Source: a bacterium (GTDB lineage Bacteria > Eisenbacteria > RBG-16-71-46 > CAIMUX01). From it: DNA of 64,000 nt. Under the pieces are notes generated by a model. The model was not told where the DNA came from. It ran no database searches and saw nothing but the letters and a program-made list of their open reading frames with translations. Of the stretch, positions 3 through 32,587 are shown in pieces. A program made the position numbers and the translations under genes. The stretch lies in assembly GCA_030431975.1 (NCBI GenBank), contig JAUIHP010000001.1:62001-126000 (forward strand), read 5' to 3'. Each line of letters opens with the position of its first letter. Within the stretch, counting starts at the first letter, position 1.

Positions 3-800
3 TACCTCGGGATTCTCCTCTTCCCGCACGACCTCCACATGGAACGTCACTTCGTTTTCGACGGCGCCTCACTGAAGTGGCTCATCGGTATCGCCGTACC
101 TCTCATCGTCGGGGGATTGGCGCTGCGCCGGGTTCTGACCCGATTTGAAAGCCTGATGTTCGCCTGGTTCTTCGTAGGTCTGGTTCCCTTCCTGCACATC
201 GTCGCGCCACTCAGCGCCACGGTGGCGGAAAGGTGGCTCTACCTACCTTCGATCGGTTTTTGGGCGGCCGTTTGCAGCCTCGGCGTCCGATCGATCGGGG
301 CGTGGGGGCGAAACGCGAGGTACCTGGGTGTGGCCCTGGTGGTTGTTTGGATGGGATACCTGGGATTCGCCACCGTAGATAGGATCGGAGACTGGCGCAC
401 GTCCACTTCCCTCTTCGAACATGACGTCCAGTTCGCTGCGAACAGCTTTCTCGTGCACAACAATCTGGGAGTGCTCGCCATGGAACGGGGCGACTACACG
501 CAGGCCCAGGCCAGGTTCGAGCAATCCATCCAAACCCATCCCGGACAGCTCTACGGCCTCGCCCACAGTAACCTCGGGGAGGTCCTGGAGATTCTCGGAC
601 AGGAGAACGAAGCCGCGCGCCACTACTACCAGGCGATCAAGCTGAGCCGGGAGGCGCTGGCCTACGAGAAGCTGGCTCGGGCGTTTCTCCGTCGAAACGA
701 GATAGACGGCGCCCGGTCCCTCATCGATGAAGCGCTACGGTGGCATCCCAGGAATGAAACCCTGCTACGGATGTCGGAGCAGATCTCTCGCCAACCTTAG
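3..800 (+). CDS. C-terminal part of a TPR-containing GT-C type membrane protein (cut by window edge)
   Basis: The reading frame is open from base 3, in frame with and upstream of the first ATG (base 39), so the gene begins outside the window and 265 residues are visible. The visible part has several hydrophobic segments, a motif around ERWLYLPSIG that is typical of TMTC-like and bacterial TPR/GT-C membrane proteins, and then two to three TPR units (for example HNNLGVLAMERGDYTQAQARF). Such proteins are integral membrane proteins of the mannosyltransferase-like superfamily with TPRs outside the membrane. The substrate cannot be told. A similar membrane-plus-TPR design recurs at 52575-54782. Confidence 0.75.
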   Translation, partial: YLGILLFPHDLHMERHFVFDGASLKWLIGIAVPLIVGGLALRRVLTRFESLMFAWFFVGLVPFLHIVAPLSATVAERWLYLPSIGFWAAVCSLGVRSIGAWGRNARYLGVALVVVWMGYLGFATVDRIGDWRTSTSLFEHDVQFAANSFLVHNNLGVLAMERGDYTQAQARFEQSIQTHPGQLYGLAHSNLGEVLEILGQENEAARHYYQAIKLSREALAYEKLARAFLRRNEIDGARSLIDEALRWHPRNETLLRMSEQISRQP

Positions 801-1691: not shown

Positions 1692-1801
1692 CCTTATGCT
1701 GGAACCCCAACCGGGCCGAAATCGTTCCGGCCTCTGACGTCTTCGGAGTATATCGCGACTTCTCCGTCTCGTCTCGGGGCCAGGAACGCTATCATGCCGC
1801 A

Positions 1802-3220
1802 ATGCATCGCCGAACCGTCTTTCTGCTCGCGGCCTACCTGTTCCTGCGTTGGATCCTGGCCACCGAACCCGGGTACACCTACGATGTCCAAGCCTACAAA
1901 CGGTGGGCTATCGGGGCCGCCATCGGCGGCGTCGACGAAGTCTATCTCCGCTCGGACATGGACTATCCGCCGCTCTACGCCTACATCCTCTATCCGCTGG
2001 CCAAGGTCTACCTTGCGATGGTTCCGCCGGACGGAGAAACGGTCGAGGACTCGACTCTCCTAACCGTTCTGGTCAAGCTCCCGCCACTCCTCTTCGATTT
2101 GCTGATGGCGGGACTCCTGGCCCTTTGGGTCCGCCGACGCAACATCGAGTCGCCCGATCGGTGGACCCGGTGGCTACCCTGGATCTATCTGCTCAATCCC
2201 GTCGTCCTCATGGAAGGCGCCTACTGGGGACAGCCGGACTCGATCCACAGCAGCCTGGTCCTGGCCTGCTTTCTTTGGTTGGGCTGGGCCAGGTCGGCGT
2301 GGCCGGCCTGGGTGCTGCTCGCCCTTGCCACATTGATGAAGCCGCTGGGAGCACCTTTCATTCCTCTGCTTGGGATCCTCAGCCTGGTGCGTCACGGGTT
2401 CCGCTCGACGGTGGTCGGTGGACTGCTGGGTTTGGCCACGGCCACGTTGATCTTTCTTCCCTACATCGTGACCGGCCGAAGCGAAGCGACGATTCAGCGG
2501 GTCCTCGGCGACGTGAAGGCCATGTCGTACACGTCGACCAACGCGCACAACTTGTGGTGGCTGATCGGTCCGTGGCAGGACTCCGAGGTGCCGTGGCTGG
2601 GACCACTCACCGCGACACACGTTGCTATGACGCTCTTCGGCATCTTCTATGTTGGAGTTCTATGGGCCGGGCACCGACTTCACAGAACGCCTGCGGCTGG
2701 CCCCGGAGTGGGAACCGGGCTCGAAACGAAGTCGGGTTCGATGTCGGAATCGGGAACGGAGTTGGATCCGGCAACGCGGCCAGAGTCGGGAGTCGCTCAA
2801 AGGAGCGTTTCTGGAATCACGCATCCTCAGATGATCGGGCTCGCCCTCCTCGTCGGATTGGGCTTCTTCATTCTCTCCACCCACATGCACGAAAATCACA
2901 TGTTCATCGCGATCCCGTTGTTGCTTCCGCTGACCGTCCTGCGCGGAAAGCGCCAGCGGTGGGTTCGTACGATCTTCATGGTGGCAACGGTGGGCGCGTT
3001 TCTCAATCTCATCCTTCACGACCTGGACTTCGTCGAGACGGCCCTCATAACCTCAGCCGGAAGCCTCGAGAAGATCAATCCACATCTGAAGCGCCCGTTC
3101 TACACAACGGAGTACGCAATGATCCAGGTAGGGGCTGTCCTCAACGTCGCCCTCTTCGCCTACCTCTGCTGGCAGTCGTTCCGACCGAACGGTGGTTGGC
3201 TTCGCGATCTCGGCCGGTAG
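1802..3220 (+). CDS. GT-C family glycosyltransferase (polyprenyl-phosphate-sugar dependent, mannosyltransferase-like)
   Basis: This is a polytopic membrane protein of 472 residues. Recognisable GT-C features are the periplasmic YTYDVQAYKRWA segment near the N-terminus, DYPPLYAYIL, the WGQPDS motif after LLNPVVLMEGAY, and a late THMHENHMF segment comparable to the HE-containing loop of PIG-M/DUF2029-like mannosyltransferases. GT-C enzymes take the sugar from a lipid-phosphate donor on the outer face of the inner membrane. An unusual serine/glycine/proline-rich stretch (about residues 297-340, nt 2690-2820) interrupts two membrane segments. The frame is open upstream to 1514, but the ATG at 1802 begins the membrane-protein homology. 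The acceptor is unknown. Confidence 0.7.
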   Translation: MHRRTVFLLAAYLFLRWILATEPGYTYDVQAYKRWAIGAAIGGVDEVYLRSDMDYPPLYAYILYPLAKVYLAMVPPDGETVEDSTLLTVLVKLPPLLFDLLMAGLLALWVRRRNIESPDRWTRWLPWIYLLNPVVLMEGAYWGQPDSIHSSLVLACFLWLGWARSAWPAWVLLALATLMKPLGAPFIPLLGILSLVRHGFRSTVVGGLLGLATATLIFLPYIVTGRSEATIQRVLGDVKAMSYTSTNAHNLWWLIGPWQDSEVPWLGPLTATHVAMTLFGIFYVGVLWAGHRLHRTPAAGPGVGTGLETKSGSMSESGTELDPATRPESGVAQRSVSGITHPQMIGLALLVGLGFFILSTHMHENHMFIAIPLLLPLTVLRGKRQRWVRTIFMVATVGAFLNLILHDLDFVETALITSAGSLEKINPHLKRPFYTTEYAMIQVGAVLNVALFAYLCWQSFRPNGGWLRDLGR

Positions 3221-3301
3221 TGGTTCCACCCGAACGATGGCGTCATAACCTCGGCAGGAAGCGTGCCCGAACGCAAAGGCACTGCCTGGTTCGTCCGTCG
3301 C

Positions 3302-4288
3302 TCAGCTCGACGACAGCTCACGAAGTAGCGTGGTCATCTGCTGTGCATTGGCGGCGGCTTTCCCGCCATGGCAGTTGTTGAAGAAGACGAAAGTCTGACG
3401 GGTTCGCGCGGCCGTGTCGTGAATCTTGCCGGCCCATTCCTCGAGCTCGGACTCATTGTAGAGGTAGTCGTAGCGCGTCGAGTTGTCCCCGTCCCACCAA
3501 CGTTCGGCGTTGCGTCCATGGAAGCGGAAATAGGCCGTATCGCCACTGACGCGGACGATCGGCGGAAAGAGACCGCGAAGATTCGGTGCGTCCACGACGG
3601 TGAATCCGAGATCCAGATCTCGCAGCAAGTCCGTTGCCGAAGTATTGGCCCAGCTGTCGTGGCGAAACTCCACGAAAGCCGGGCGCGAACCGAGGTGGTG
3701 ACGGATTCGCCGCAGCCAGTCTCGATTCTCTTTCGTGTCCCGAAATCGGTAGGGAAATTGAGCGAGAATGCCGTCCAGGCGCCCGGCCGCTTCCATCGGA
3801 GCGATCGCTTCGAGAAACGCATCCCAGGGTGTGGTGGCGGTGTCCCCGACTCGAGCGGCCGCCGGGGCAGACCGTTCACCAGTCGGCGGTTCCGAGACAT
3901 CGGGGCGCGACCCGATCGTTTCAAAGAGGTCGAGATTGACGGCCTTCTCCGTGGGACTCGTCTTCCCGCCGTTCGTCTTCCCGCGGCCCGTCTTCCTGAC
4001 ACCCGTGTAGCCCGCGCCCGACTTCTCACGCTCCGCTGCACGACCCGAGTCGCGGCCGTGCGTCAGCTCACCGCTTAGCTTGATGACAAAGCGAAACTCA
4101 GAGGGTGTTCGGTCAACCATCGACTGAAACGTCGAGGCCGGAGGAAGACGGTAGTAGGTCGAGTTGATCTCAACAGCGGGAAACTGTCGGGCGTAGTACT
4201 CCAGCATGTCCTGGGACCGCGTTCCATTCGGGTAGAACGAACCGATCCATCCCCTGAAACTGAATCCTGAAGTACCGACGTAAATCAA
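3302..4288 (-). CDS. DUF72 (YecE-like) TIM-barrel protein with an inserted low-complexity loop
   Basis: The protein has 328 residues and begins with the DUF72 signature IYVGTSGFSFRGW, followed by INSTYYRLP and FRFVIKLS, and later FVEFRHDSW and TFVFFNNCHGGKAAANA. These are the conserved strands of this TIM-barrel family, whose biochemical role is not established. Residues 79-154, between the strand ending KLSGELTHG and the helix beginning PWDAFLEAI, form a lysine/glycine/serine-rich insertion absent from ordinary DUF72 proteins. The start codon is TTG at 4288 with no strong Shine-Dalgarno site, so the exact start is uncertain. It follows the DprE-like pair on the same strand by 78 bases. Confidence 0.85.
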   Translation of the reverse strand: MIYVGTSGFSFRGWIGSFYPNGTRSQDMLEYYARQFPAVEINSTYYRLPPASTFQSMVDRTPSEFRFVIKLSGELTHGRDSGRAAEREKSGAGYTGVRKTGRGKTNGGKTSPTEKAVNLDLFETIGSRPDVSEPPTGERSAPAAARVGDTATTPWDAFLEAIAPMEAAGRLDGILAQFPYRFRDTKENRDWLRRIRHHLGSRPAFVEFRHDSWANTSATDLLRDLDLGFTVVDAPNLRGLFPPIVRVSGDTAYFRFHGRNAERWWDGDNSTRYDYLYNESELEEWAGKIHDTAARTRQTFVFFNNCHGGKAAANAQQMTTLLRELSSS

Positions 4289-16514: not shown

Positions 16515-17072
16515 ATGATCCGTTTCGATTGGCGCCGCACTTCGCGGCATCTTGGCTCGTCTCTTTCCTACATCGGGCTTGTTGCACTCGCCGGTCTAGT
16601 ACTATTCAGTGCCGGCTGCGGCAGTGACGACTCCACACCATCCGCCCCGGACGGACCTACGTATCAGGAGCTTCCAGACGGAACGATCCTCGCGATCCCG
16701 TCCGGCGCCACCTACTTCTATTCTCACGTCGAAGTTTCCGGTGGGACCGGACAGTGGAATCTGCCTCCAGGTCCCGGAGAACTCGTAATTTCCCGCATCG
16801 ACTGGTCTTTCTGTGATCCGAAAGCGGCACGCTTGGAGTTTCTCGACGAGTTCAGCACTCCCGCGCCCTTCCTAACGTGGAGGCTTCCCACGACCATCGA
16901 AACTCCGTTGGCCGGGATCTCGATCCTCGGGTTGTTCTCGGGCAACAATCTCGAAGGGGGTATTCGAATGCTCCTCTACAACGCTCCCGAGCAGTATGAC
17001 GGCCTCGCATCCTACCGACTCACGAGTTGCGACGGAGATTGGATCTCTCTTTATGGGTACTACCGCAACTAG
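16515..17072 (+). CDS. Putative lipoprotein of unknown function, 185 residues
   Basis: The ATG at 16515 follows an AAGGGGG sequence and opens onto a basic N-terminus, a hydrophobic segment and a lipobox ending LFSAGCGSD. The mature part starts with a Ser/Pro/Asp linker and then a small beta-rich domain with no motif that I recognise. It ends SLYGYYRN. The frame is open upstream to 16428, but that part lacks signal features. It precedes a secreted ACC-repeat protein gene by 56 bases and may share its transcript. Confidence 0.65.
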   Translation: MIRFDWRRTSRHLGSSLSYIGLVALAGLVLFSAGCGSDDSTPSAPDGPTYQELPDGTILAIPSGATYFYSHVEVSGGTGQWNLPPGPGELVISRIDWSFCDPKAARLEFLDEFSTPAPFLTWRLPTTIETPLAGISILGLFSGNNLEGGIRMLLYNAPEQYDGLASYRLTSCDGDWISLYGYYRN

Positions 17073-17128
17073 TGTTTGGGCGTCGCAGATACGGTGTACG
17101 TCCCGCAGGCTTCGGCTCTGATTGCACG

Positions 17129-18361
17129 ATGATCCGTGGGGACAGAAACGCGGCGGTCGTCACGACCGCGGCATTGCTGTTCCTCGCCCTGATCGCACTG
17201 CCGGCTCAGGCGCTCGCGGACAGCATGCTCTACGCTCCCGCAGAGTCGGATGATCCCACCTATCGCCAGCTCATCTCCCAACAGATCGGCGGTCCCTGCG
17301 ACTACTTCGATGCGCGGCTGGGCACGCCGAGCCCCGAACTTCTGGCCTCCTATGACTGTGTCCACACGTGGTCGCGCGATCCGTACAACAGCCCGATTGA
17401 GTTCGGCGATCGGCTCGCCGACTTCGTCGACGGAGGCGGACGCGTCATCCTCGGCGCACACACTTCGTCGCAGGGCGGCAGCCTCATCCTGGGACGCATC
17501 ACCCAGTCCGGTTACCTACCTGTGACGAGCCTGGGCGCGAGCGATCAGCAAAGCGCCTGGGACGGCACCTGTCGGGAAGACTGCGTTTGGACGAACATTC
17601 CGGGTGTCTACGCATCGCATCGGGCGATCGGAACGATGGCAGACCCGGTCCATGCCACGGTCTGCGGCCGCTACGTCGACGGAGAGGTCGCCGTCGCCTT
17701 CAACAGTGATCGATCCGTGGCGTTCGTCAACGGCGCCGCGGCGTTTCCGTATCCGCTCGACCCGTACATGGCTCAGCTTGTCGGAAACGTTTGCCTTTGC
17801 GAGGCAACGTCGGATCCCGAAGGCGCGTGCTGTCTGGAAGATGGAAGCTGTGTCGTTCTGAACGCCGACGATTGCGACTTCGAAGGCGGAACCTATCTCG
17901 GGGACGGCACCCTCTGTGATCCGGACCCGTGTTCGCACGAAAAGACCGGCGCCTGCTGCCTCTCGAACGGAATCTGTATCGTGGTCACCGCCTCCCAGTG
18001 TCTCGAATCGAGAGGGACCTACTTCGGAGACGGGAGTCTCTGCAAGCCGGACCCGTGCGACGATGATCCACTCGGCGCGTGCTGCGCACCGGGGCAACCC
18101 TGCCTCGTGACGACGCCTGACGAGTGCGCGGCTCTCGAAGGCGAGTATCAGGGAGCGGACGTCCCCTGCGATCCCGACCCTTGCCCGGAGATCGCCGCGT
18201 GCTGTTTGAAGGACGGGAGCTGCATCCTTCTAACGGCAGATGAGTGCACGGCCCGCGGCGGGTCGTTCCAAACCGGAGTCGACACCTGCGACCCCAACCC
18301 CTGCCCTCCCGTTCCCATCCAGAACGTTTCCTGGGGTACCCTCAAGTGGAGTTGGCACTAG
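17129..18361 (+). CDS. Secreted GATase-like protein with four six-cysteine ACC repeats
   Basis: This protein has 410 residues from the ATG at 17129. A signal peptide ends near ALADS. Residues about 32-225 resemble the class I amidotransferase/ThuA-like fold often found in secreted FCB proteins (FVDGGGRVILGAH), without a clear catalytic triad. From about residue 230 there are four repeats of 36-39 residues, each with the pattern ACC..DGSC...C...G.Y.GDGT.CDPDPC (the last two more divergent). The C-terminus is VSWGTLKWSWH, related to the tails at 27240 and 57216. The repeats match the 22 copies in the protein at 28115-32587. Function unknown; extracellular location inferred. Confidence 0.75.
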   Translation: MIRGDRNAAVVTTAALLFLALIALPAQALADSMLYAPAESDDPTYRQLISQQIGGPCDYFDARLGTPSPELLASYDCVHTWSRDPYNSPIEFGDRLADFVDGGGRVILGAHTSSQGGSLILGRITQSGYLPVTSLGASDQQSAWDGTCREDCVWTNIPGVYASHRAIGTMADPVHATVCGRYVDGEVAVAFNSDRSVAFVNGAAAFPYPLDPYMAQLVGNVCLCEATSDPEGACCLEDGSCVVLNADDCDFEGGTYLGDGTLCDPDPCSHEKTGACCLSNGICIVVTASQCLESRGTYFGDGSLCKPDPCDDDPLGACCAPGQPCLVTTPDECAALEGEYQGADVPCDPDPCPEIAACCLKDGSCILLTADECTARGGSFQTGVDTCDPNPCPPVPIQNVSWGTLKWSWH

Positions 18362-27239: not shown

Positions 27240-27956
27240 CTAGTAGAGAGCCTTGATCTGTCCCCAGGTCGTTTCGACCGTCGGGGTCGTGCAATCCTCG
27301 ATGGCTCGAGCGGAGATTCCCAGAGCCTGGGTCGGTCCCCAAGCTGCAGAGACATTCCCCCATCCGGTGGGGAATCCTTGTCCGGGTGCATAGTTCGTCG
27401 AAGGCAGGCCGCCTCCCACACCGTCCGTATCCGCGGCGATGAACCATCCGTTCGTTCCCGACCCCCAGTTTCCCCAGAAGCCGACAAACGCCGTACCCGT
27501 CGCGCTGCAGTCGGCGTCCACCTCCACCTCGTGGCGGCTGATGCTGGGCCAGAATGCAATCGCTCCCGGGTCAAAATCGGTCACGACACCGGTCACGGTC
27601 GTCGGGGTCATTCCGTCGGCCGAGTCCCAAACGTACACGTCCATCGTTTGTCCGGCCTGGTTGCCGGTGGCAGTGAAGTCGAACACCACCGAGCAAACTT
27701 TCTGACCGGGCACCGCATAGCGCTCGGCAAATGCGCCGTAGTCCGGCGGAAGCGCACCACCGCCACTCCATCCGTAGCCGTTCTCGTACGTTCCGTCGGC
27801 GTTTTCGAGCAGTGGGGCATCGCAGACGCCACCGTCGCCCGAGTCGACAAGGATACCCGTGCCCCCGCCCAGGTCTTCCGGTCCAGCCGAGACCCAAACC
27901 GGGTAGGCTGCGCCGGCGACAAGGCCTACGAGCAAGAGTCGATTCCAAGTTTTCAA
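27240..27956 (-). CDS. Secreted protein with C-terminal TWGQIK tail (paralogue of 57216-57947)
   Basis: Translation from TTG at 27956, seven bases after GGAG, gives 238 residues with a signal peptide (ending VWVSAGPED). The frame is open to 28379 but the added part is arginine-rich and lacks coding character. The body has a Gly-rich YENGYGWSGGG stretch, a VDVYVWDSADG-like motif (MDVYVWDSADGMTP) and FVGFWGNWGSGTNGWFIAADTDG. It shares these with the protein at 57216-57947, including the order of blocks and the tail (VETTWGQIKALY against VEASWGDLKRQF). No function is known to me; extracellular export is inferred. Confidence 0.7.
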   Translation of the reverse strand: MKTWNRLLLVGLVAGAAYPVWVSAGPEDLGGGTGILVDSGDGGVCDAPLLENADGTYENGYGWSGGGALPPDYGAFAERYAVPGQKVCSVVFDFTATGNQAGQTMDVYVWDSADGMTPTTVTGVVTDFDPGAIAFWPSISRHEVEVDADCSATGTAFVGFWGNWGSGTNGWFIAADTDGVGGGLPSTNYAPGQGFPTGWGNVSAAWGPTQALGISARAIEDCTTPTVETTWGQIKALY

Positions 27957-28114
27957 AGCATCTCTCCTTCGCTGTTTTACAGGACGTGGCCTTGAGGGAG
28001 GAGTCCTGGAATCGTAAGGCAGATCCACTATCCCGAACAAGAAGTCGGCGTCCAATCTCGGTTGGCCATTCTTTCGCGGCTGCAACCGCCGTCGGCTCGA
28101 GAGCCGAATCGAGA

Positions 28115-31100
28115 CTATCGGCTGCACGGTACCTCGGACTCGCCCACCGTTTGCTCCCCGGTGACCGCCCCGCCCAACTCGTACGTCACCTCGCGGGATT
28201 GGACGGAAAGCACCTGATAGTTGTAGCCACCGTAGAAGAAGATCGGATGGGACAGATGGCAGGACCCGTCGTTCCCGATCTCTCCGATCTGGATCCCTTC
28301 GTTGCTGGCTCCGGTGAACTCGACTTCCACCACGGCTCCGACCAGACGCTCCCCCGCGTCGAACAAGAGTCTCAGGCACAGGTCACTGGAGTTTTGACCG
28401 TGGGTGACTCCGAACTCGTATTCGGATATGAAGGCAATGAAGTCCTCACAGATCCCCGGTTCGCAGACGGTTCCGTCTCCCAAGTAGTCGCCCTCACACG
28501 ACATCTCGTTCGGGGTGACGAAGCAATCCAGGTCGACGCAGCACGCCCCACTCAAACAGATCAACGGAGAGTCACAGTCCGTCCCTTCGCCCAGCCAGAT
28601 CCCTCCGGAACACTGTGATGCCTCGACCAACTCGCACTCACCATTCGTGCAACATGCGCCGAGAGGCGGGCAAGGATCCGGATCGCAAGTCGAACCGACG
28701 CCGTGGAACTCGCCGAACTCTGCCATGCAAGCGAACTGCGAGCGAACCGTACAGCCCTCTGTCACCGTGCAGCACGCCCCATGACAGGTCGTGGGCTCAC
28801 ACACCCCGTTCAGGATGAAGGTGCCGTCGCAAAGTGGAGGGGTCGTCACGACACAGTCATCGATCGTGCAACAAACTCCGGTGGGACACATCTCGTCCGA
28901 AGGACAGTAGATTCCTGGTCCCCAGTAATCGCCGGCGCAGTCCTCTGCGGAAGGTACCAGTACGCAGGTGATCTCCAGGCAGCAGGCTCCGAGAGCTTCA
29001 CAAGGGGACGGCTCGCAGGCGGTGCCATCGCCCAGATAGAAACCGGCACAGTCTTCCTCGGGGTCCATACGACACTCGCCCGCAGTCAGGCAACAGGCCC
29101 CGAGCGGGAGACATGGATTGGGGTCGCAGGAGTCCTGTCCAGGGAAGTGATCACCGTCGCAGGAGAATCCGAACGTGAGCGAGCACTCCTCACCGATGCA
29201 GCAAACACCGTCCTGACAGATCGAGGGCGCGCATTCCGTACCTACTCCCAACCATGCGCCGTCCCTGTTTATGCAAGCCGCAGCGCTTTCCTCGATGGAA
29301 CACTCGTCCCCGACACAACAGGCGCCAGGCTCGTTCTGACACGGGTCCGGATCACAGGTCGTGCCGTCGCCCTGATACTCGCCGTCGCAAACCTCTTCAC
29401 CGCCGGTGACAGAGCAGGTCTCGTCGACGCAACAAGCACCCGCCGCGCACGGGTCGGGATCACAACCGCTACCGTCTCCCTGGTAGCTCCCCTCACACTG
29501 CCCGGACGGGACCACCGTGCAGGACGTGCCGATACAGCAGGCTCCCGTCTTCGGTTCGTCGTCGCATGGGTTCGGATCACAGGTCGCGTCGTCTCCCTGA
29601 TACTCCCCGTCGCAAAGTCCGGCTTCGGTGACCGAGCACTCGCTTCCGATACAACAGGCCCCGGTCGGTTGTGAACAGGGATTCGGATCACAGTCGATGC
29701 CGACACCCTGGAACTCTCCGTCGCAAAGAGCGGCCAGCGTGATCGTGCAGGACGCCTCGTCGCAGCAGGCTCCCGTTCCGCACGGATTGGGATCGCAGGT
29801 CGTGCCCGCCAGGTACTGCCCGCCCTGACCCGTGCAGGGGGATTCATCGAGAATCTGACAAGTCCCGCTTGGGAAACAGCATGCACCGGGCTGAGGGCAC
29901 GGATTCGGATCGCAGGAGGTACCGTCGCCCTGATAGTCGCCGGTGCACTGTACAGATGCGGTCAGGCGGCAACTGCCGAGTTCAAAGCAGCAGGCTCCCT
30001 GCTCATCGAAGTCGCAGATCTCCGGTGAGCAGGCGACACCGACGCCCTTGAAGTCGCCGTCACAGGACGCTTCGCGAAGGAACTCGCAGCGCCCGGCCTC
30101 CAAACAGCATGCTCCCGCCAACGGATCGGTACATGGTTCCGAGAAGCACGTTGTTCCGTCACCCAGGTAGTTCCCGCCAAGCTCGCGTTCGCAACGCAGT
30201 TGACTTCGGACGGTGCAGCGCTCGTCGGAGACGCCCCAGCAGCACGCGCCCTCGGGCGGTTGCGGACACGGGTTGGGCTCACACGAGGTCCCGGCTCCCA
30301 GGAACGAAGCCTCCTCCTGCTCTCCACACTGTGCTCGGGAGAGAACGGAGCAGTCGCCGATTTCGAAACAGCACGCACCCGGCTGCGGACAGGAGTTGGG
30401 ATCACATACGGTCCCGTTGCCAAGGTACTCCAGATCGCAGTCGGCCTGTGGCGAGATGAAACAGGTTCCATTGGGACGGCAACACGCGCCCGGCTGAGGA
30501 CACGGATTGGGATCGCAGCCCGTGCCGTTGCCAAGATAACTCCCTCCGTCGCAGTTCTCTGCGCCCGACGCAACGAAGCAACTGCCGTCGGCCAGACAGC
30601 ACGCTCCGGGCTGGGGGCAGGGGTTTGGATCACAGTCGCTACCGATTCCGCGGAAGGCGCCACCGGAATCGTTGCAGGCGGCCTGCGCCAAAAGGACACA
30701 GGAGCCGTCCGCGTTGCAACATGCTCCCGGACACGGGTTGGGATCGCAGACCGAACCGATTCCCAGAAAGAGTCCGGAAACATTGACGCAATCCGACGAA
30801 GCCAAAGGCAGACACTCTTCCCCGACACAACACGCTCCGATACAGGGATCCGGATCGCAACTCGTGACGTCGGCAAGAAGGAAACCGTCGCAGTCCTCCT
30901 GTCGGAACACGGTCCGGCAGGAGCCGTCGGTAAAACAGCACACACCGATGGCCGGAAGTCCCTGGCACCACTCCGGCGTCAGCGTTTGAGAACGCAACTG
31001 AGGCGTTTGGCGGGTAAGACCGGGATGGTCGGTGAGAATGTCTCCGTCCGATTCCGGGTAGATCCCGGTGATGTCATTGTCGGCAAAGTTCGCCCGGTCC

Positions 31101-32587
31101 GTGACGGCATTGGTAAAGCGACTCCCGAGCCGCTTCCCCGTCCGAAGATGATTCGCCATCTGCACCATTCTCGACGTCTCGTCCGCCCGCGACGAGGAAG
31201 CGATGCGGTAGTCGTGCTCTCCCAGCATGGCGGCCAGAGCCCCGCCGAACTGATCCGCGTAACACATGTCGAGAAAAACTCGGAGGCGACACGCCCTGGA
31301 TTCCGGGAGACAAAGGTGGTTCGGCCTCCAGGTAAACTGGACATCCGTGTGCTCCGCGAAGAACCCGGCGGTCTTCTCCTCGCCATGTGCGGTCACGTAG
31401 ACGATCAGTGTCGACTGACGGCCCTCGTCTTCCAGGCGCTGGCGAATGATCCCGTTGAACTCCTCGAACTTCGTCTTGTAGCGAGTGTCACTGGGTAGCG
31501 CCCACGGAACCTCCGAGAGATTGATCACCGCGATCTGGGAGGACGGAATTCCGTGGCCGAGAAACCACCGGTTCATGTTGCGGACGTCGGCCTCGAAGCT
31601 GGAGCCGAAGTCCCCCTGCACCAGAATGACGAAGGTGTCCGAGTTCGGTCCCGGACTTTGGAAGAAGTTGTCGTACGGAAGTGGCCCCGGCCGAAATCCC
31701 AGGAGTTCGTCAGGAAGCTGGATGACTTCGGCGTGAGGCTCGAAGTCGGCGCCGTCCGGAATGTCTTCGGGGTCAAAGTCACCCGGGTCCACACCCGTGA
31801 AGGTCAGATACTCGACTTCGTCGCGCCAGGTCGGCGTGTGGTTGATAGCCGGCGGCCACGTCGGTTCCTCGTGGATCGTAACCTCGCCGTCCGTCGCGTC
31901 GACTGTGACGTAGACGACTCCGTGAGCAAACCGGGCGTCGTACTCCGGATCCAGATAAAACAACCACGTTGGTGTGGAGATCCGAATGACGGCGTCGGCC
32001 GGCACGACCTCCCCGTTCAGTGCATAGTCAGATGGGTAGACGATGGATCCAGAAGGCAGTGGCTGCAGGACACCGAGCACGAGAAACGTCGGATCGAACT
32101 CGGACCGGATCGCGGCAATCGCATCCTCCCTGGAGATGGCAGGCTCGTAACCGAGGTCGATGGTGGCGCCGGGAATTCCGGAGAACGATCTCTCCATCCG
32201 GCGGGCTCCGTCGTCGGCAACGAGAGTCAGCGAGCCGTTCGGCAGCGACTCGAAACGAAACTCGCCGTCTCCTGCTGACTGGGAACTCGCCACCGTCCGG
32301 CCGGTCGCGTCCACGATCTGAAGAGCAACGCCGCTCGCGGGAACGGCCCCGTCCGACGCATCGCCCGGGTCGGACAGCAGGATGAAGCCCTCGCCTTGAA
32401 GGCCCGGGCCGGTCGGTGTCCGAAAGAGAAACGCTTCTGCGACGGCTCCCTCGACATCCGGATCGAACTCGACGTCACCGGGTGGTGTCGGCGGAGTCGG
32501 GTCCGACGAATCCTCGGAACACCCTGACATCCAGAGAAGAAAAGGGACGACTACGGCGGCAAAACCGAGGCGAGCAAGGTTACGCAT
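28115..32587 (-). CDS. Giant lipoprotein: caspase-like (clan CD) peptidase domain plus 22 six-cysteine ACC repeats
   Basis: This is a 1490-residue lipoprotein with a lipobox at Cys23 (WMSGCSE). Residues about 45-145 form a beta-rich carboxypeptidase-regulatory-like module (LQIVDATGRTV, FRFESLPNGSL). Residues about 315-530 look like a clan CD cysteine peptidase: strand TLIVYVTAHGEEK with His401-Gly402, and strand RVFLDMCYADQFGGAL with Cys442, the spacing and order of the legumain/caspase His-Cys dyad. Residues 548-1380 are 22 tandem repeats of about 34-43 residues, each with six cysteines (ACC...C...C...C.P..C). A 110-residue tail follows, ending EVPCSR. It is predicted to be at the cell surface, with disulfide-rich repeats as a stalk or binding array. 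Catalysis is inferred. Confidence 0.8.
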   Translation of the reverse strand: MRNLARLGFAAVVVPFLLWMSGCSEDSSDPTPPTPPGDVEFDPDVEGAVAEAFLFRTPTGPGLQGEGFILLSDPGDASDGAVPASGVALQIVDATGRTVASSQSAGDGEFRFESLPNGSLTLVADDGARRMERSFSGIPGATIDLGYEPAISREDAIAAIRSEFDPTFLVLGVLQPLPSGSIVYPSDYALNGEVVPADAVIRISTPTWLFYLDPEYDARFAHGVVYVTVDATDGEVTIHEEPTWPPAINHTPTWRDEVEYLTFTGVDPGDFDPEDIPDGADFEPHAEVIQLPDELLGFRPGPLPYDNFFQSPGPNSDTFVILVQGDFGSSFEADVRNMNRWFLGHGIPSSQIAVINLSEVPWALPSDTRYKTKFEEFNGIIRQRLEDEGRQSTLIVYVTAHGEEKTAGFFAEHTDVQFTWRPNHLCLPESRACRLRVFLDMCYADQFGGALAAMLGEHDYRIASSSRADETSRMVQMANHLRTGKRLGSRFTNAVTDRANFADNDITGIYPESDGDILTDHPGLTRQTPQLRSQTLTPEWCQGLPAIGVCCFTDGSCRTVFRQEDCDGFLLADVTSCDPDPCIGACCVGEECLPLASSDCVNVSGLFLGIGSVCDPNPCPGACCNADGSCVLLAQAACNDSGGAFRGIGSDCDPNPCPQPGACCLADGSCFVASGAENCDGGSYLGNGTGCDPNPCPQPGACCRPNGTCFISPQADCDLEYLGNGTVCDPNSCPQPGACCFEIGDCSVLSRAQCGEQEEASFLGAGTSCEPNPCPQPPEGACCWGVSDERCTVRSQLRCERELGGNYLGDGTTCFSEPCTDPLAGACCLEAGRCEFLREASCDGDFKGVGVACSPEICDFDEQGACCFELGSCRLTASVQCTGDYQGDGTSCDPNPCPQPGACCFPSGTCQILDESPCTGQGGQYLAGTTCDPNPCGTGACCDEASCTITLAALCDGEFQGVGIDCDPNPCSQPTGACCIGSECSVTEAGLCDGEYQGDDATCDPNPCDDEPKTGACCIGTSCTVVPSGQCEGSYQGDGSGCDPDPCAAGACCVDETCSVTGGEEVCDGEYQGDGTTCDPDPCQNEPGACCVGDECSIEESAAACINRDGAWLGVGTECAPSICQDGVCCIGEECSLTFGFSCDGDHFPGQDSCDPNPCLPLGACCLTAGECRMDPEEDCAGFYLGDGTACEPSPCEALGACCLEITCVLVPSAEDCAGDYWGPGIYCPSDEMCPTGVCCTIDDCVVTTPPLCDGTFILNGVCEPTTCHGACCTVTEGCTVRSQFACMAEFGEFHGVGSTCDPDPCPPLGACCTNGECELVEASQCSGGIWLGEGTDCDSPLICLSGACCVDLDCFVTPNEMSCEGDYLGDGTVCEPGICEDFIAFISEYEFGVTHGQNSSDLCLRLLFDAGERLVGAVVEVEFTGASNEGIQIGEIGNDGSCHLSHPIFFYGGYNYQVLSVQSREVTYELGGAVTGEQTVGESEVPCSR
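28448..30946 (-). repeat. Coding tandem repeats: 22 ACC/CDPNPC units
   Basis: This is the DNA for residues 548-1380 of the giant lipoprotein. Units are about 100-130 bases long and diverged in sequence, so the array is old rather than freshly amplified. Each unit encodes a Cys-Cys pair, one Cys after about five residues, one after about eight to twelve more, and a terminal C-D-P-N-P-C pair; many units are joined by a PQP linker. Confidence 0.85.

Follow-up and report, generated by a model that had tools for sequence, protein, structure and literature searches.

The reverse-strand gene at 28115-32587 of the window, by which we mean the whole stretch of 64,000 nucleotides that was analysed, encodes a predicted lipoprotein with a diverged clan CD cysteine peptidase in a new architecture. 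The best explanation of the protein as a whole, to which we assign a probability of roughly 0.6, is a zymogen-like clan CD peptidase that is lipidated at its N-terminus, preceded by a companion domain and followed by an outward-directed arm of cysteine repeats.

Domain organization of the lipoprotein

The genome comprises 6.19 Mb in 59 contigs. The features of the gene and of the neighbouring frame are as follows.

28115-32587, minus strand: whole gene, lipoprotein peptidase with 22 six-cysteine repeats, 1490 amino acids, ATG start
32519-32587, minus strand: lipoprotein signal peptide and lipobox (LWMSGC, Cys23), by sequence pattern
32216-32344, minus strand: CarboxypepD_reg-like beta stretch, residues 82-124 (Pfam PF13620, E 3.6e-4, under the cut-off)
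31793-32140, minus strand: companion domain, residues 150-265, an N-terminal partner of clan CD peptidases
30968-31654, minus strand: clan CD cysteine peptidase domain, residues 312-540, predicted from profiles, alignment and model
31385-31387, minus strand: His401, predicted catalytic histidine, followed by Gly402; invariant column in alignments A5 (12 sequences) and A9 (5 sequences)
31262-31264, minus strand: Cys442, predicted catalytic cysteine; invariant column in the same alignments A5 and A9
28442-30946, minus strand: 22 six-cysteine repeats, residues 548-1382, consensus GACCxxDGSCxxxxxxxCxGxYLGxGTxCDPxPC
28118-28441, minus strand: C-terminal domain of 108 amino acids, residues 1383-1490, without a family match
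27240-28379, minus strand: downstream neighbouring frame with a TYENGY module and the C-terminus TPTVETTWGQIKALY; its true start is probably near 28000

The sequence elements on which an initial annotation of this gene had been built are all present. The N-terminus (MRNLARLGFAAVVVPFLLWMSGC before SED) forms a good lipoprotein signal with Cys23 as the +1 residue, and by this pattern, a signal peptide with LWMSGC at residues 18-23, the protein is a bacterial lipoprotein. His401-Gly follows a hydrophobic strand within VYVTAHGEEKT, and Cys442 is found at a D-M-C-Y strand end in VFLDMCYADQF, 41 residues from His401. A recount of the repeats gave 22 units with exactly six cysteines each, hence 132 repeat cysteines out of 140 in the protein. 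Scanning the 1490 residues against Pfam and NCBIfam revealed no named family except the CarboxypepD_reg stretch under its cut-off.

Because the lipid is N-terminal, the peptidase would be membrane-proximal, with the repeats beyond it and extending outward. The proposal of a cell-surface protease on a long disulfide-locked stalk is therefore retained for its first part, a cell-surface-type lipoprotein with a clan CD peptidase, and given up for its second, as the peptidase is placed between the anchor and the repeats. The stalk arrangement, reversed in this lipoprotein, may fit the many proteins in which repeats are located just before a C-terminal tail.

A diverged clan CD peptidase domain

Close homologues of the peptidase domain were absent from 59 relatives, 47 genomes of the phylum and the contigs of the genome itself, and the clan CD claim therefore rests on remote similarity. 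The sole weak match, in G022, is a truA-like gene by its own sequence and was rejected. A Pfam search with the domain gave nothing even at E 10, with PF01650 (C13) and PF00656 (C14) both unmatched, and a PDB sequence search with the single target sequence also gave nothing. Aligning that single sequence to the C13 group with hhalign yielded a probability of 0.7%, in what is an uninformative comparison.

Profiles that did not contain the target recognized residues 300-548. The first, made from 27 C13/C14-like domains of other genomes, some of which had been recruited by a profile that included the target, scored 25.4 bits (E 1.2e-7 among 202 sequences, P 6e-10), while the best of 200 shuffles reached 0.3 bits. 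With 16 more distant domains, several of which exceed the Peptidase_C14 cut-off, P was 2e-6, and His401 and Cys442 fell on the catalytic pair. The check less exposed to target-biased recruitment is a profile of 19 peptidase domains recruited by the companion domain alone (E 2.8e-6 among 202, P 1.4e-8). Four companion-linked relatives gave a profile (P 1.8e-5) that placed Cys442 and aligned the histidine to another HG of the target, and this profile is therefore no witness for His401. Judged from its sequence, the domain has the ordered His-Gly and Cys after successive core strands and the above-chance similarity to members that characterize clan CD, and the predicted His401/Cys442 pair is intact.

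An AlphaFold model computed from the target sequence alone had a pLDDT of 36 and was discarded. A 12-sequence alignment, guided by C13 rows, raised the pLDDT to 53.6 (pTM 0.56), with the predicted order b1 a1 b2 a2 b3(H401) b4(C442) a3 b5; b3 lies just before His401 and b4 just before Cys442. The top Foldseek matches of this model were unrelated and weak, with E not below 1e-3. The legumain match comes from a second look with VIA-align only, and not from the Foldseek ranking: for the C13-guided model (pLDDT 53.6) the top rows were legumains, GPI transamidase subunit K and metacaspases (Z 10.5 to 8.3), with unrelated Rossmann-type enzymes next (Z around 8). Family C25 was absent among the structural rows listed, which has no bearing either way. 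In the model, the peptidase fold is nearest to C13.

The predicted domain resembles legumain and other C13 proteins, including GPI transamidase subunit K, in strand order, in the His-Gly that ends b3, in the Cys after b4 and in their spacing, and these proteins are the best structural matches of the model. It differs from them in lacking a Pfam C13 score, in having Ala400 where most C13-like relatives have Asp before the histidine, and in being part of a lipoprotein with cysteine repeats rather than carrying the legumain C-terminal prodomain. In our reading of the alignment, the Arg/His loop of the legumain S1 site is not conserved, and asparagine specificity is therefore not expected. With the caspase- and metacaspase-like C14 peptidases the modelled domain would share the fold and the catalytic pair, and a paralogue in the same genome is over the C14 cut-off. 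In contrast to C14 peptidases, which are cytoplasmic, the target is exported, and it has no C14 match. By the Pfam models of the two families, the domain is a diverged clan CD peptidase outside both C13 and C14. The literature searched contained no mention of Eisenbacteria together with a caspase or a cysteine-rich repeat.

Alternatively, the clan CD domain might be catalytically dead and serve for binding, as the scaffold of an adhesin whose working part is the repeats and the C-terminal domain. Three observations fit such a protein: the peptidase region is very diverged and without close homologues, the motif after the cysteine is altered (C-Y-A-D in place of the usual C-x-S-G), and the repeats make up most of the chain. 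However, dead relatives in clan CD usually lose the histidine, the following glycine or the cysteine, and here all three are kept at a normal spacing (41 residues, compared with 37-64 in relatives). We consider a dead scaffold unlikely, and prefer a zymogen-like peptidase with an intact catalytic pair.

A companion domain linked to clan CD peptidases

Residues 150-265, which did not figure in the initial annotation, have no Pfam annotation and are homologous to L010 (BLASTP 3e-9), a protein from a different genome within the phylum; in that protein, too, the domain stands ahead of a clan CD domain. A profile of this companion domain was seeded with five copies and no peptidase residues: the target, L010, the same-genome paralogue, a second copy in G014, and L192. 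The paralogue (L189:2585-6223, minus strand) combines the companion with a Peptidase_C14-positive domain (23.0 bits, cut-off 21.4) and a FlgD-like tail, and is without repeats. In L192, from another phylum, the companion is a separate secreted protein of 156 amino acids (1736-2206, plus strand), and the gene after it (2203-3867, plus strand) encodes a clan CD-like peptidase. The start codon of the peptidase gene and the stop codon of the companion gene overlap, and the two form a natural in-trans pair.

Run over 385 genomes, the profile located the companion in 23 of them, 8 belonging to the phylum and 15 outside it, at 26 places altogether. By profile, the clan CD signature lies directly downstream at all 26 places, including all 21 that were not seeds and that belong mostly to other phyla; L211, without a plain HG dipeptide, and L206, split by a frame change, are exceptions in form. 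Within the same order, the companion domain is also present on C13-like proteins. This linkage is our strongest result, and supports the target peptidase independently of the peptidase sequence. Together with the target-free profiles and the legumain-like model, it upholds the original assignment of a clan CD peptidase on a lipoprotein.

The companion shares features with the PepSY/FTP propeptides of thermolysin-like (M4) peptidases, namely the N-terminal position, a helix that starts with [IL]SxEEA and an end of the form V-x-V-D-x-x-T-G. Unlike these propeptides, it is joined to cysteine peptidases of another clan, and His222 (target numbering) is conserved in 24 of 24 aligned copies. PepSY (PF03413) reached 13.4 bits on the target companion, below the cut-off of 24, and weak PepSY matches occurred in 3 of the 24 copies (best E 0.0016). 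The matches listed in a literature search for PepSY with caspase were all unrelated. From the strict N-terminal linkage and the weak PepSY-like pattern we infer a role as propeptide or chaperone, and the companion is probably a propeptide-like partner of the peptidase.

Six-cysteine repeats

Each repeat starts with a CC pair, is about 33-45 amino acids long, and has the cysteine spacing 0-5-7-(9..14)-4. The repeats are not a chance pattern, because the same unit recurs across the genome with E values down to 3e-94, in at least 335 well-formed copies distributed over 56 open frames. This number is a lower bound, since several repeat frames end at contig ends. Arrays reach contig ends at L044, L028, L012, L055 and L047 (contigs C51, C58, C11, C2 and C41), and these breaks of the assembly within arrays lead to an underestimate of the genome-wide count. 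The repeat was present in all 11 sampled genomes of the order, and with one or two each in 8 of 36 other genomes of the class and in 2 of 338 genomes outside it.

No match to the repeat was found in Pfam or among PDB sequences. Like EGF-like and other short six-cysteine repeats, it is a short unit that is present in many tandem copies in extracellular proteins, but it differs from these in its opening CC pair and in its spacing. Its even six-cysteine pattern suggests that each repeat probably forms three disulfides.

A receptor with a peptidase domain regulated by the repeats had been offered as a second possibility. The repeats are covalently joined directly after the peptidase domain, and could for example gate the active site in the manner of a sensor arm. 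However, they are found on about 55 other frames with unrelated partners, among them right-handed beta-helices, a subtilase, a di-haem peroxidase and a protein kinase, and the unit of companion and peptidase occurs without repeats in other proteins. Moreover, the nearest relative is within the same protein for only 3 of the 22 target repeats, from which it follows that the array is old and that the module is shared rather than private to the peptidase. The receptor proposal is not supported, and direct regulation by the repeats seems to us quite improbable; the companion domain is the more likely regulator. In the zymogen-like lipoprotein that we favour, the genome-wide distribution of the repeats argues for a function in reach or binding rather than in catalysis.

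Several other repeat proteins were noted. The window holds a second one (17000-18358, plus strand), a frame of 453 amino acids with 4 repeats and the C-terminus VPIQNVSWGTLKWSWH. A lipoprotein at L046:3390-9893 (minus strand) has 37 repeats and then a zincin-like motif (HEVGHNFDRPHT), with no Pfam match at 0.001, and at L050:4792-7062 (plus strand) a protein kinase domain shares a frame with 4 six-cysteine repeats. Two modules of about 190 amino acids recur beside the repeats in many proteins, TYENGYAWQYGG... and GGxLIVH...SPRLAGVTFGIDY...WFAGYxYYG, for instance in L040, L054, L041 and the window frame 27240-28379 (minus strand).

C-terminal tails and their possible role in sorting

The motif PTxExSWGx[IL]Kxx[YF]R is located at the extreme C-terminus of dozens of exported proteins, with or without repeats. 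It is carried by the own-genome loci L143-L172, and the genome contains 53 matches at E<=0.003, of which the best 30 all end 6-16 residues past the WG. Within the window the tail is found at 27240-28379 (minus strand), which is the next gene downstream of the lipoprotein peptidase, at 57216-58016 (minus strand) and at 17000-18358 (plus strand). It is present in 42 of 47 genomes of the phylum, as against 2 of 71 outside, and had no Pfam or NCBIfam match in the proteins scanned. The tail may be a sorting signal.

The WGx[IL]Kxx[YF]R tail closes 27 of the 56 repeat frames, and FlgD/T9SS-like domains close about 18. Inspected by eye and post hoc, the four true lipoproteins of the set, the target included, have neither tail. 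With an automatic pattern, the comparison of lipobox and tail did not reach significance (p 0.25); by eye it gave 0/43 versus 4/7 (p around 1.5e-4, hand-computed and post hoc). The 108-residue C-terminal domain of the target has neither a WGxIK nor a FlgD/T9SS-like tail, and a type IX C-terminal sorting domain had no match in Pfam or NCBIfam for this protein. Most economically, lipidation would take the place of a C-terminal sorting signal in the lipoprotein peptidase.

The surface peptidases of clan CD include the gingipains and PorU (C25), which go with type IX secretion. The target resembles them as a predicted surface peptidase of the same clan, and several other repeat proteins of the genome end in FlgD/T9SS-like domains. 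It is unlike them in being lipidated by pattern, in lacking a T9SS-like tail and in having no C25 match. One could imagine that the peptidase acts like a sortase and processes the WGxIK-tailed proteins, as PorU does type IX substrates, given that clan CD includes PorU, GPI transamidase and peptide ligases and that the adjoining downstream gene carries the tail. Yet the tail is widespread in the phylum, whereas the unit of companion and peptidase was found in 8 of its 47 genomes. We rejected the sortase on this mismatch, as highly improbable.

Proposed mechanism and significance

We propose that the lipoprotein is exported by Sec and held by its lipid at the N-terminus, probably in the outer membrane. 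Outward from the lipid would follow the small beta domain, the companion, the clan CD peptidase, the 22 repeats and the C-terminal domain. As a propeptide or intramolecular chaperone, the companion would hold the peptidase in a folded or inactive state until it is outside the cell, where the active enzyme may cleave proteins close to the cell surface. The repeats would form an outward-reaching, protease-resistant arm, made of a module that recurs on dozens of surface proteins in the order.

We also put forward a broader idea, in which we place less than even confidence. The companion may represent a new, dedicated propeptide or inhibitor family that serves clan CD peptidases of bacteria, either fused to them or in trans, and in Eisenbacteria one such zymogen may have become part of a surface layer made of cystine-repeat proteins. 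Many of these proteins may reach the surface by an undescribed sorting route in which the WGx[IL]Kxx[YF]R tail is recognized.

A specialist would most likely be surprised by the companion domain and the WGxIK tail. A zymogen hypothesis can now be tested for a whole set of unannotated clan CD peptidases of bacteria from several phyla: the companion domain is defined, and the pair that occurs naturally in trans is open to direct assay. In the uncultured phylum Candidatus Eisenbacteria, the six-cysteine repeat found throughout the genome and the C-terminal motif, which behaves as a sorting signal would, emerge as two lineage-specific features to which Pfam and NCBIfam gave no name in the scanned proteins.
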